From Streptomyces sp. NBC_01460 (GTDB lineage Bacteria; Actinomycetota; Actinomycetes; Streptomycetales; Streptomycetaceae): DNA of 64,000 nucleotides. Of the stretch, positions 4,465 through 16,021 are shown piece after piece; positions within the stretch are counted from its first letter, which is position 1, and each line of letters starts with the position of its first letter. Under the pieces are notes generated by a model that made no database searches, was not told the DNA's origin, and was given only the letters and a program-made list of their open reading frames with translations. The position numbers and the translations under genes were made by a program. The stretch is from assembly GCF_036227405.1 (NCBI RefSeq), contig NZ_CP109474.1, positions 70,671-134,670 on the forward strand, in the 5' to 3' direction.

Positions 4465-5331
4465 GTGGCACGCATCGTCGGAGTACACGGAATTCGGCAG
4501 TCGCAGACGTCCAAGGCGCGGCTGACAGCGGAGTGGAGCAAGGCGATCAGCCGCGGGCTCGGCAGCATCGAGCAACCCGGCATCGGCTCAGGCGATCTGG
4601 AACTGCCCCACTGGACAGGGCTTCTGGCTCGCGGGGCCGACCGCCTCGGCGCAGAGGACGACCCTTTCGGCCCGGCAGCTCCCTTGAGCCAGGAGGAGAC
4701 GGCATTCGTCACCGACGCCTTGGAGGAGGTCGTCCACGGCGCCGAGTTGGCGACTTTCGAGGACATCGAGCTCCAGACACTGGGATTGCCTCGCTTGTGG
4801 CCGGCCCGCCTCACCCGACTGGTGATGGCGTACGACCAGCGATATCCCCGCGGCGGAGGCAAGCTGTTCGTCTCCGCGATGCGCGAAGTGCGGTTCTACC
4901 TCTACGAGCCCGGCCTTGCGGCGCGTGTCAGGGAGCAGGTCGCCGATGCCTTCAGCGAGGACACCTCCGTTGTCGTGGGGCACTCACTGGGCAGCGTGAT
5001 CGCCTTCGACCTGCTGCGTCGGAGCGAGATCCCCCCGGAGCGGGTGGCTCACGTACGCACCCTCGTGACGTGCGGCTCGCCTCTGGCGATCCCAGCGGTA
5101 CGCCGCGGGCTCGGCGTCACCGACGGCGAACCCTTGAAGCTGCCAGGTGACATCTCGTGGGTCAACGCCTTCGATCCAGGTGACTTCATCACCGGCGGCC
5201 GAGGACTGAGCGGCACCACACCGGCGATCGCCGACGCACAGGTCCGCAACGGGGTGGTCGATCCCCACAAGGCCCTGACCTATCTCCGGACCGCGCCGGT
5301 GGCCCACGCCATCGCGGGCGAGGAGCGGTGA
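4465..5331 (+). CDS. Alpha/beta hydrolase, coupled to the caspase-STAND gene
   Basis: A 288-residue alpha/beta-hydrolase-fold protein, probably esterase- or lipase-like. It opens with VARIVGVHGIRQ, the HG of an oxyanion loop, and has the nucleophile elbow GHSLGS with Ser174. Later segments FDPGDFITGG and VVDPHKALTYL could give the acid and histidine of the triad. No signal peptide or membrane helix is seen, so it is cytosolic. The GTG at 4465 was chosen because GGGGGAG lies 6-7 bp upstream; the open frame extends further up but would translate the 8-bp tandem repeat. The stop overlaps the next start (GTGA), so the two are co-translated. It may be a toxic lipase or a target of the neighbouring protease (inference). 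Confidence 0.85.
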   Translation: MARIVGVHGIRQSQTSKARLTAEWSKAISRGLGSIEQPGIGSGDLELPHWTGLLARGADRLGAEDDPFGPAAPLSQEETAFVTDALEEVVHGAELATFEDIELQTLGLPRLWPARLTRLVMAYDQRYPRGGGKLFVSAMREVRFYLYEPGLAARVREQVADAFSEDTSVVVGHSLGSVIAFDLLRRSEIPPERVAHVRTLVTCGSPLAIPAVRRGLGVTDGEPLKLPGDISWVNAFDPGDFITGGRGLSGTTPAIADAQVRNGVVDPHKALTYLRTAPVAHAIAGEER

Positions 5332-8300
5332 GCGGGCCGGTCGCTGACGACTGGGGCAGACGACGGCTCGTCGAAATCGCTGTTTCGGAGTACGACCGCG
5401 ACACCCATGAGACGCCGCAGGACCACGAAAACTTCAGGAAGGGCATCGAGGCCCAAGTAGCCGTCGTCGAGGAGTGGTGGGCTGCGGACAACTCTTCGGA
5501 CGAGCGACGTGGCTTCGAGGTCGTGAAGCCGAAGGGCATGCGCACTGTCCGCGATCTGCGCTCCTTTCTCGACGAGGAGGACCTGGCGGACGCCGACGAC
5601 GACGAGGTCCTCGTCGCCTACATCACCGGCCACGGCGTGAGCCGTGATTCCGAGATCCACTTCCTGCTCCTGCCCGACTCGGACCGGAACAGGGTCCTCA
5701 ACACCGCTTTCCAGACCGCCGAACTCGTCACGACCTTGCTGGACTCCCGCGCCACGCACGTACTCGTGATGGTGGACTCCTGCTTCTCGGGAGTTTTGAG
5801 AAAAGATCTGAGCAGACGGCTCGCCGCCCTCAGCGACGAGCGGCGCGGGCTCAAATCCCTCGTCGTACTGACGTCGGCTGACGAGTACACATCGCCCCGC
5901 CTCGAGGCCTTCTCCCGCCTCCTCAAGGCGACGATGACGCACTTCAAGACGCAGTCCGCCGGCTACGCCCTTCCCTACCTGAGCTACGAGGACTTCTTCA
6001 CCGCCATGACGAAGGTCTTCGTACCTTCACTCATGGCCGACGTGCAACCGGTATGGCCGGAGGAGTCGCTGCAACGTGACAAGGAACATCAGGAACCCAG
6101 CCCCTGTCTGCCCAATCCCGCGTACACAGCGGAGCCCGACGTGGTGGAACCGGCGCGCAGCGCCGTCGCCTGGAGCCCCGCCGACCTCGACTCGTACTGG
6201 CAGTCACGGGCGTCTGGCCGTCCGTCTCCCACCCCCGGGGTGACCGACTGGTTCTTCACCGGACGGGCAGCTCAGATGAGGCGCGTGACCGAATTCCTCG
6301 CAGGGGACGAGGGCACGCTCATCGTCACCGGGGAGGCCGGCTCGGGGAAGTCGGCGCTGCTCGCTCGAGCCGTCACCCTGAGCGATGCCCGGTTCCGGGC
6401 TGACGAGACCTACCGTCATGTCATCGAAGCGACCGAACCCGACCTCCTCGTGCCGGAGGGGGCGATCGACGCCGCGGTACTCGCCCGCAACGCGGACACC
6501 GACGAACTCACCGCCGCTCTGTACGAGGCGCTCACCGGTCGGCCGCCTGAACGAGGAGCCGGGGTCAGGACGGTCGACCTGGTCCTCGACCATGCCCTGG
6601 AGTACCTCCGTCGGGAGGGTCGGTCCCTGACCGTCGTCGTGGACGGCATCGACGAGGCAAGGAATCCGACCCGGACCATCACCGACCTCATCCGGCCGCT
6701 GTCCGAGCAGTGGTCCGACGACGGACGGCCTGCGGTGCGAATGCTTCTGGGCGTCCGCAGCGCGCACGCCCCGGTCGCGGGAAGGCTGCAGCCTTCCCGC
6801 GACCGGGCATCCGATCTGCTGAACCTGCTGGTCCGTTCCACGGAGTCCGGTGAACCGCTGCGGACGGACACCGGTGCCACGGCAGACATTGCCGCGTACA
6901 CAAGCACTCTGCTCAGGGCGTTGTCCGGACTGCACGACGACGCTGAACACCCTGACATCCAGCTACTGGACGAGCTCGCGGCCGCCGTGGCGGAAGAGGT
7001 AGCCCCTTCGTTCCTGGACGCCCGGCTCGCTGCGGAGTCATTGGAGAGGAGTAGCACCTTCCCGGACCCCGACAACCCTGAGTGGCGTGCCTCCCTACGC
7101 CAGGGCACCCAGCTGCTCCTGCTCCAGGACCTCGGAGAGGTGAGCCGCAACACCGGCCTGCCCGCCGAGGCCGTCATCCAGGTCCTGCGGGCCACAGCAC
7201 TCGCTCGGGGCGCTGGTCTCCCGTGGGCCGAGGTGTGGCCTTGCGCCGTGGCCGCACTCACGCCGGGGGGCCTCCCTGCACCTGCCGAGAGCGTGATCCG
7301 TCAGGTCCGGGAGAGTCGCCTCGCCGGCTATCTGACGACCGCTGTCGAGGACGGCCGGTTCGTCTACCGACCCATCCACGAACGTGTGGGAGAGCTGCTG
7401 CAGAGCACTCCCCACCTGCTCCTCGTCGAGTCCCTCACATCCGCTCATGTGCTCCCGGCCCAGGCGAACGTCGGCGAGGACCACCGCCGGCTGGCCGTCG
7501 CGTTCAGCTCCCTCCACGGACTCCAAGAACCCCACGACAGCCCACCGCACCCGTATCTGCGCCATCACCTCGTCGAGCACGCAGCGGCCGGCAAGGTGCT
7601 GAACGACAGCGTCGTCACGGAGACGTTCCTCCCGTACGAAACGAGCGGGAATGTGCGTGGGGCGCTCGGGCTGTTGTCGGAGCACACCCCGGACACCACA
7701 CGGCTGTTCGCGTGGACACGCATCGAACCGTTCCTGGGCGACGCTCCGCCTTCTGCACGCGCGGAGAGCCTGCGCTTCTCTCTCTGGGAGCATGAGGGAG
7801 GGCGCCCTGTGCGCACGCCCTCCCCAGGCCGTTCGGAGCCGGAATCCTCGGGGCGCCTCCGACCTCGGTGGAAAGACCTCGCTGTCCACGGCAACGTCCT
7901 GGCACGGCAGGAGGCACCTATCCACGCTCTCGCGTCGTTCGGCCTGCACGATGGGACGCCGCTGGTCGCGGTGGGCTGTGACGACGGCTCTGTGAGGGTG
8001 TGGGACCCCACCACCGTGACTCCTCTCGGTCCGCCGATCCAGGTGCACGGTGGGGCTGTCCGGGCCATGACCGTTGTTCCGGGCGCGGGCGGCCAGCCGT
8101 GGGTGGCCTTGGGGACGGACAGTGGAGTCCAGGCATGCGACCCGTTGGGTGGGGCGATCGTCGACCTGCCGGTGCGAGAACCTGTTCTCTGCATGTCCTC
8201 GTACACCGACGAAGACGGCCAGGTAGTGCTGGCGGTGGGTACGGCGGAGGGGCTCGTGCTGTACGACACCGTCGGAATCCGGCACGACACGGCCGACGCG

Positions 8301-15305: not shown

Positions 15306-16021
15306 CCGAGCCTCAAGCCAGCGCCCGTTTCGTGGCCACCCATAGCGTCCTGTCCATGGACACCCGGCATCCATACACCGCAAAGTCCCTCGTCGACGCG
15401 CAGGACATGCATCGCACCGTCATGAGCGGCTTCCGCGGCTGGGTGGCGGACGGCGACTCCGACGCCCGGGCACAGATGGGCATCCTTTCCACGTGGTCGG
15501 TCGACCTGAAGGAAGGGGTGCTCGTCCTGGTCGTGCAGTCCCGTGTAGCGGGGGACTGGGCCGGGATGCCCCCTGGAGCACTGACCGACAAGCCGCACGT
15601 CCTCACCGTCGACCGTACGCTGCGGGCCGGAGACTCCCTGACCTTCCGAAGTGTCATCAACCCTGTCCGCAGCCGGCCGTCAGGACCTCCGTCTCCCGAG
15701 CGCACCAGGGGCCGGCGCACTGAACACACGCGGCCCGACCACGTACGGAACTGGTTCGTCCGCCGCCTTCAGCCTCCGGGGGAGCCCCGAACGGGACCCG
15801 ACGGCGTTGTACGAATCGGTGCCACCGCAGAGGAGGACTCTCTGGCCGTCAGGATGCTTCCGGCAGTATCGAGCCCTGGTCATCACAAGGGCCTGCGGAT
15901 AGCCCGTGCAGAGATCCGAGGAACCCTGAAGGTGACCGATCCTGCTGCCCTGGTGGATGCCATGACGCACGGGATAGGGCATGGTCGGGCTTACGGGTGT
16001 GGGCTTCTGCTGACTCGGTGA
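15302..16021 (+). CDS. cas6e: crRNA-processing endoribonuclease Cas6e
   Basis: A 239-residue RAMP endonuclease that cuts the repeat hairpin and stays bound to the 3' handle. [14 protein letters not shown] supplies the catalytic-histidine helix, [13 protein letters not shown] is the characteristic middle motif, and [16 protein letters not shown] is the glycine-rich C-terminal loop. The GTG at 15302 sits in a four-base overlap with cas5. CRISPR array 3 starts 46 bp after the stop, in the same orientation. No cas1, cas2 or cas3 follows. Confidence 0.92.

Follow-up and report, generated by a model that had tools for sequence, protein, structure and literature searches.

A type I-E CRISPR Cascade, a caspase-STAND-WD40 protein, an α/β-hydrolase and a Cas3 HD domain that has lost its catalytic pair (here called dHD) are encoded in a single cassette in Streptomyces sp. 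NBC_01460. The cassette occupies positions 4465 (start of the hydrolase gene) to 16,021 (end of cas6) of a 64,000-nucleotide stretch of contig C2 (C2:70671-134670; hereafter the window, to which all positions without prefix refer). Its gene order is α/β-hydrolase, caspase-STAND-WD40 protein, dHD on the opposite strand, and cse1-cse2-cas7-cas5-cas6e. As judged from sequence comparison, this hydrolase-to-cas6 unit is conserved, and on balance we lean towards reading it, in line with an earlier note on this DNA, as an RNA-guided abortive-infection system in which target binding by Cascade would be relayed to the STAND protein. A more specific form of this reading, which we hold tentatively and which falls a little short of probable, is that of an RNA-guided apoptosome. 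Here, the R-loop would display the pseudo-nuclease HD domain as an adaptor to an Apaf-1-like wheel of caspase-STAND-WD40 proteins, resulting in caspase-driven cell death.

Conservation of the cassette

The full gene order is seen in five distinct Streptomyces loci, namely the window, a plasmid of NBC_01591 (L128), the chromosome of genome G601 (L129), NRRL B-24085 (L071, fetched again as L130) and S. acidiscabies (L072, with an interrupted cas7), as well as in the near-identical locus L127. In blastn comparisons, in which only hits of more than 150 bases were considered, similarity of the window to L071, L128 and L129 starts at positions 4809, 4449 and 4434, respectively, and ends between 16,019 and 16,024, with only CRISPR repeats matching beyond; hits to L072 are confined to positions 6607-16,005. 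The insertion that interrupts cas7 in L072 (L072:12087-14080) holds a 431-residue minus-strand frame. Thus, the association of the STAND gene with cas3-less I-E operons, which the earlier note had seen in one strain, recurs with the same order in L071, L072, L128 and L129.

Within the cassette, the hydrolase and caspase-STAND genes overlap by 4 bases, as does each consecutive pair in cse1-cse2-cas7-cas5-cas6, and the dHD gene is divergent from cse1. All five Cascade subunits match the I-E models of Pfam, NCBIfam and PADLOC, some of the NCBIfam scores lying below cut-off, and the open reading frames and overlaps of the complete operon are as first described.

Probable replacement of Cas3 in the Cascade lineage

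In the whole genome (8.80 Mb, two contigs) the Cas3_HD profile has a single match, which is dHD itself, and no cas3 was found. The helicase model TIGR01587 matches at four places in the genome, all below its cut-off. The best of these coincides with a chromosomal frame of 1206 residues flagged by PF22590 (26.5 bits, or 27.1 with its neighbours, at a cut-off of 27). Since PF22590 is also positive in 14 of 14 control genomes, we infer that this frame is another helicase and not Cas3. A search of the whole genome with PF01867 and TIGR03638 revealed no cas1. The absence of cas3 and cas1, noted earlier for the window, hence extends to the genome by profile searches; cas2, also listed as missing, was not searched for.

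To place the Cascade among its relatives, its Cse1 was used as query against 394 Streptomycetaceae genomes, 91 of which matched. A close group of 25 genomes, including the own one, shows 48-63% identity (window excluded), the remainder 25-33%. From the other 24 close-group genomes 25 Cascade loci were taken, genome G186 having a second, 39% copy. Hereby, a different STAND gene (c4) stands beside Cascade in 18 of the 25 loci and a Cas3 gene in six, the latter Pfam-checked in two and present in pieces only in L047; the fetched stretch of L058 contains neither. The c4 proteins mostly have about 1140-1330 residues (958 in L054, and a shortened form of 640 in L041). Scanning five of them gave one helix-turn-helix domain and one NPHP3_N P-loop NTPase above the Pfam cut-off, two weak NACHT-type matches and none for L041. 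CRISPR arrays also lie near several c4 loci. The 19 loci from named genomes comprise two with the window layout (L071, L072), two with Cas3 alone and 15 with c4, where in seven of the 19 the c4 proteins are 100% identical to those of loci already counted. In L074, one of these 15, both a c4 gene and a full-length Cas3 gene are found beside Cascade, a possible intermediate.

Concatenated Cse1, Cas7 and Cas5 sequences from 43 loci were placed in a tree with L060 and L089 as root, on which choice its polarity depends. The Cas3-bearing loci are basal in this tree, and the five caspase loci are grouped with a support of 0.999. The c4 loci form a second clade, at the base of which stands the Cas3-bearing L075. 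The node joining both clades has a support of 0.698, so that their branching is tentative. Cas3 thus looks ancestral in this lineage. Because the Cas3-bearing loci are basal and the caspase and c4 clades separate, two or more replacements of Cas3 by STAND proteins are probable, one by the caspase-STAND protein and a separate one by c4.

The caspase-STAND-WD40 protein and its link to Cascade

The protein comprises a caspase domain (residues ~1-280), a STAND NTPase (~300-700) and a WD40 propeller (~850-1495). The caspase fold is tentatively assigned from profiles that score below their curated cut-offs (NCBIfam caspase_w_EACC1, E 4.8e-14, 52 bits, cut-off 140 bits; Pfam C14, weak, 18.5 bits, cut-off 21.4), and no Protein Data Bank sequence matched. 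The residues described earlier as intact, i.e. the His102-Cys152 dyad, Walker A K341 and Walker B D439, D442 and E443, are invariant across all 118 sequences aligned (the window protein and 117 of 120 listed homologues, those longer than 1300 residues). With both Walker motifs intact and a C-terminal repeat sensor, the protein has the features of a STAND protein. In the neighbouring hydrolase S174, D240 and H268 are identical in 14 of 14 aligned homologues.

Since residues 1-721 of the caspase-STAND protein match in 105 of 394 Streptomycetaceae genomes, the protein family is, by these matches, not CRISPR-specific. We examined 12 such loci, of which ten are from the other genomes that matched best, one is the own chromosomal paralogue and one comes from genome G344. 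The hydrolase adjoins the caspase-STAND gene in ten of them, and Cascade is in the stretch in only one, from genome G186. Taken together with a passage in PMC7159879, according to which caspase domains always neighbour an α/β-hydrolase in one related class of conflict systems, this suggests that the hydrolase/caspase pair probably pre-dates its link to Cascade. The hydrolase does belong to the conserved cassette, yet it is a frequent caspase partner without Cascade as well and so is not specific to CRISPR. The own chromosomal paralogue (39% identity; C1:5652951-5654921, L100) has neither hydrolase nor Cascade in the 19 kb examined.

Independent co-defence and guarding are the main rivals of the relay reading. 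In the former, two defences would stand side by side: Cascade with dHD would silence phage transcription by binding, and the hydrolase/caspase-STAND pair would sense phage through its own WD40 propeller. A Cascade without Cas3 is still able to bind DNA, and the pair occurs without Cascade in nine of the 12 loci. We nevertheless consider this reading unlikely, as three observations argue against it. Gene order is the same in the related loci and DNA similarity stops at the cassette ends. Moreover, at least 24 of the 42 dHD clusters have a contig in common with one of the caspase-STAND clusters listed. At least 15 share one with a listed Cse1 cluster, at least 28 with either or both and at least 11 with both, sharing being defined by an exactly equal longest-contig size among the best 120 matches per partner, which implies the same contig, not adjacency.

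The third observation concerns the sensor, as Cascade-linked members appear to have a WD40 type of their own. Among eight linked members with NTPase identities of 44-60% to the window protein, seven have WD40 identities of 40-51%, and in three stand-alone loci with NTPase identities of 53-56% the WD40 identity is 33-36%. The difference of WD40 minus NTPase identity has a median of -10 in 29 linked and -19 in ten stand-alone proteins (p 6e-6), in a test that ignores relatedness and in which four of the linked labels come from loci seen and 25 from equal contig size; two duplicates were removed and the stand-alone ten include G186. L072, where Cascade was seen directly, is the cleanest linked case (NTPase 49%, WD40 47%). 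In 90 unlabelled proteins the WD40 identity is at least 45% in eight and lower in 82. G186 had been a candidate for a second Cascade-caspase association, its hydrolase and caspase-STAND genes adjoining Cascade and a shortened c4 gene; it was placed with the stand-alone group because its WD40 domain (22% identity) is of the stand-alone type.

Conserved linkage and a dedicated sensor would fit equally well with a guard, in analogy to CRISPR-repressed toxins. Here, the STAND propeller would watch Cascade and dHD and fire when a phage anti-CRISPR disturbs them. This we rate lower still: the searches of this genome revealed no Cas3 whose work a guard could protect, and the phage-matching spacers with their adjacent motif (see below) imply that target binding itself matters.

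The HD-only Cas3 relic

dHD is recognized by the Cas3_HD profile with 27.5 bits (cut-off 23.1). Its family comprises 42 clusters, including that of the window, among 5.8 billion proteins. With dHD as query, ten of 392 Streptomyces genomes matched, three of them with HD-only proteins (the own genome, G601 and G565, whose contig is the one of NRRL B-24085) and the other seven within frames of 986-1150 residues, which is the length of Cas3. By these counts the family is uncommon yet widespread. It is monophyletic (0.889) and sister to the Cas3 of L075, and therefore most likely derives from the lineage's own Cas3. A profile of the family matches four solved Cas3-type sequences, and the PADLOC profile PDLC01125 matches all 42 clusters.

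The alignment columns of the family were compared with seven Cas3 proteins of the same lineage, with ligand columns assigned by motif. The HD pair is kept in none of the 42 clusters; its positions carry neither His nor Asp, and are replaced by Ser in 37 and Arg (R87) in 41 clusters. The motif-1 histidine is changed to Glu (E39) in 39 clusters and is His in none, the histidine of the HEHITA stretch is retained in one, and in the GGHH stretch the second His is found in none and the first in 32, the window not among them. Metal ligands of this kind are named for solved Cas3 in PMC5965380, and dHD thus lacks those of an HD nuclease site. C153, C155, C164 and H169 are invariant in all 42 clusters, and E39, S86, R87, D185 and H188 form a new conserved set at or near the old active site. 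With a new signature shared across a family that has lost its catalytic pair throughout, dHD is, on this comparison, not decaying. The earlier note had listed a dead HD protein as an additional part; its loss of the catalytic pair is borne out, and its conservation raises it to a key part.

It is improbable that dHD has retained nuclease activity through a rebuilt active site and serves Cascade alone, the caspase pair being a back-up. The new conserved set, the one old ligand position that is mostly His outside the window and the PADLOC label of the family (Cas3'', HD only) would be in line with such a role. Against it stand the universal loss of the His-Asp pair, the changes, in 41 or 42 of the 42 clusters, at further ligand positions that PMC5965380 names, and the missing helicase for feeding in DNA.

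CRISPR arrays and phage targets

The window contains 23 repeats (at least 18 of 29 matches to the consensus) in four clusters on both strands, which agrees with the arrays in both orientations reported earlier. All lie outside the cassette, two clusters flanking it directly (Table 1). A nine-repeat array, eight of its repeats being perfect, lies on the same plasmid outside the window (C2:48272-48788, L110), and two repeats are found near one end of contig C1 (C1:48692-48778). About 60 repeats are present in L071 (two counts gave 60 and 62), together with duplicated spacers, and 69 in L129. Repeat degeneracy tends to be greatest close to the cas genes, even though this side would be leader-proximal by orientation (window 3515-4068 and 16068-16402; L071 15080-19123). 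In the stems of the window repeats four of four double changes keep the pair, and total pairing is 141 of 161 against a shuffle mean of 138.6, a value of 141 being reached by 4.6% of shuffles. As this is marginal and at least two of the 23 repeats are out of register, compensatory changes were not used as proof of selection.

Spacer matches of nine array stretches were sought in 50,697 phage records. The upstream array of L129 gave no phage match in these records, and one other stretch gave a repeat-type hit only. Of the 14 spacer-covering matches inspected, 13 lie in Streptomyces phages and one in a Gordonia phage (TinyDot). Five of the spacers are from the own plasmid and three each from L129, L071 and L106, where further records matching a spacer already counted were not counted again. 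L106 (10846-16916) is a second, decayed I-E operon of NRRL B-24085 with cas7, cas5, cas6 and a broken cas1; its spacers come from the long array beside it, which has the same repeat. All five own-plasmid spacers with an inspected match target tail genes. AAC stands immediately 5' of the protospacer in nine of the 14 cases, compared with a frequency of 0.011 for AAC in the phage sequences retrieved, and AAN is the protospacer-adjacent motif (PAM) that PMC12231136 cites for a functional I-E system in Streptomyces. Left out of the PAM count were Jalebi and Piccadilly, for which the ungapped check gave no whole-spacer alignment, two repeat-type matches to the Saccharomonospora phage PIS 136 and a match to Salutena, which was not aligned. 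PIS 136 itself carries four I-E-type repeats at 61-base spacing (L149:1374-1585), apparently a phage-borne mini-array.

That a degenerating CRISPR locus lies by chance beside a defence gene, as the degenerate window repeats and the interrupted cas7 of L072 might suggest, is very improbable in view of the invariant residues across 42 dHD clusters and 118 caspase-STAND sequences and of the largely perfect, phage-matching array on the same plasmid.

Table 1. Features of the cassette and its surroundings (window positions unless prefixed; spacer rows give matching bases and the three bases 5' of the protospacer)
Feature	Position	Strand	Basis or phage match	5' bases
α/β-hydrolase, 288 aa	4465..5331	+	weak Pfam matches under cut-off; Ser174, Asp240, His268 intact	
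caspase-STAND-WD40 protein, 1500 aa	5328..9830	+	Pfam/NCBIfam profiles, alignment	
HD-only Cas3 relic (dHD), 289 aa	10011..10880	-	Cas3_HD profile; His-Asp pair lost; CxC...C...H motif invariant	
cse1 (cas8e), large subunit	10953..12539	+	Pfam, NCBIfam, PADLOC	
cse2 (cas11e)	12536..13144	+	Pfam, NCBIfam, PADLOC	
cas7e	13141..14460	+	Pfam, NCBIfam, PADLOC	
cas5e	14457..15305	+	Pfam, NCBIfam, PADLOC	
cas6e, crRNA processing by family	15302..16021	+	Pfam, NCBIfam, PADLOC	
upstream array, degenerate repeats	3515..4068	-	repeat consensus	
downstream array, degenerate repeats	16068..16402	+	repeat consensus	
three further repeats, same type	280..430	-	repeat consensus	
five further repeats	26789..27061	+	repeat consensus	
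spacer	16158-16189		phiScoe3 major tail gene, 30/32	AAC
spacer	3667-3699		Tubberson/SoJo major tail gene, 27/33	CAC
spacer	26940-26971		Xkcd426 major tail gene, 27/32	TGC
spacers	C2:48362-48393, 48423-48454		Tubberson minor tail, 31/32; Raleigh, 30/32	AAC; AAC

The replicon

The genes parA and parB (window 634-3023) lie on C2, which is 134,670 bases long. A 22.9 kb stretch recurs with 99.6% identity on a circular plasmid of 137,773 bases in Streptomyces sp. NBC_00111 (L127), and C2 is therefore most probably a plasmid itself. The palindrome GTTGTCCGCGGACAAC has five perfect copies in the window (207-222, 2654-2669, 2753-2768, 2825-2840 and 3432-3447), where none would be expected by chance. 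The earlier note had counted palindromes among the parts of the CRISPR system; as all five copies lie in or around parAB, we rejected this and regard them as probable plasmid partition sites. An eight-base tandem repeat, GGTATCCC, occupies positions 4168-4220, about 250 bases 5' of the hydrolase start.

Discussion

In the relay reading, Cas6e would process the CRISPR RNAs (crRNAs) and Cascade would bind phage DNA beside an AAC PAM. With the HD catalytic pair and the helicase of Cas3 lost, the target would not be shredded. Instead, dHD would take the place of Cas3 on R-loop-bound Cse1, which PMC7074321 and PMC5965380 describe as the docking site of Cas3, and the WD40 propeller could recognize the dHD surface remade at the old active site. 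Judging from their families, the STAND NTPase would then oligomerize in an apoptosome-like manner and the caspase and serine hydrolase would act together, so that the cell is stopped or killed before the phage spreads.

Several points weigh against this reading. Its weakest link is the docking of dHD on Cse1, since according to PMC5965380 it is mainly the C-terminal domain of Cas3, missing from dHD, that docks on Cascade. The existence of the hydrolase/caspase pair without Cascade means that it can have its own trigger, and the eighth linked member (P0109), labelled by a 1.2 Mb contig, has a WD40 identity of 34% and looks stand-alone. The window repeats are mostly degenerate, and five of the 14 protospacers have GCC, CAC (twice), TGC or CGC in place of AAC. 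Finally, a cas3 elsewhere that could serve the Cascade was not found in the own genome, but Cas3-type genes are present in two other cassette-bearing strains: in G601 a Cas1 lies at a distance of about 66-68 kb and a Cas3-type helicase at 7.6 Mb, and in S. acidiscabies Cas1, an HD match and a helicase match lie together elsewhere as another CRISPR system. These strains thus have other nucleases.

Part of this arrangement is already published. PMC8730458 and PMC12231136 describe minimal I-E variants with a STAND NTPase in Streptomyces, crediting Shmakov 2018, and thereby bear out the surveys mentioned in the earlier note. As in the cassette, an I-E Cascade without cas1, cas2 and cas3 stands there beside a STAND NTPase gene, and cell death or dormancy is proposed. 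The variants are without array in the account of PMC8730458, whereas here arrays lie in the window and elsewhere on the plasmid, and small membrane proteins belong to those of PMC12231136. In the relatives the STAND gene commonly found is c4; the present clade has instead the caspase-STAND-WD40 protein, the hydrolase, the dead HD protein and phage-matching arrays. The list of Shmakov 2018 may include this caspase type. None of the matches listed in our literature search describes a caspase-STAND partner of a I-E Cascade.

The HD-only family is likewise known, as there is a PADLOC profile for it (PDLC01125, Cas3HD: HD only, helicase absent, called Cas3''). Its description is silent on lost catalytic residues and on a caspase partner, and we met no statement that the family is inactive in the literature and profile descriptions. 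A CRISPR complex that governs a caspase-family protease, as proposed here, is also found in the type III-E Craspase (gRAMP/Cas7-11 with Csx29), which differs in its RNA target, its single-protein effector and its TPR-CHAT protease without STAND NTPase. The conflict systems of PMC7159879 share a caspase-family peptidase operating together with a neighbouring α/β-hydrolase, and an Apaf-1-like STAND-WD40 logic is discussed there; they differ in having MoxR-vWA or GTPase cores in place of Cascade. The Cas5-HNH and Cas8-HNH Cascades (PMC10910872, PMC12669027) are type I systems that have mostly lost Cas3 and gained a nuclease domain, none of which is seen here. What seems new, judging from the literature listed, is that the cassette with its caspase-WD40 protein and hydrolase is conserved as a whole, that dHD has a pseudo-nuclease signature, that linked members have their own sensor type, that Cas3 was probably replaced twice, and that there are arrays with a PAM and phage targets.

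Coupling of Cascade to STAND proteins has been predicted since 2018, and no test of it was found in the literature searched. The present locus offers a concrete, minimal and testable circuit, in which the PAM is likely, the phage targets are real, the caspase dyad is intact and dHD is a candidate pseudo-nuclease adaptor. If the reading is true, it would represent DNA-guided programmed cell death built from parts that resemble the animal apoptosome, and Cas3 would have been replaced by STAND proteins more than once within one Cascade lineage. Recognition of phage DNA by this Cascade may thus trigger suicide of the cell instead of destruction of the DNA.

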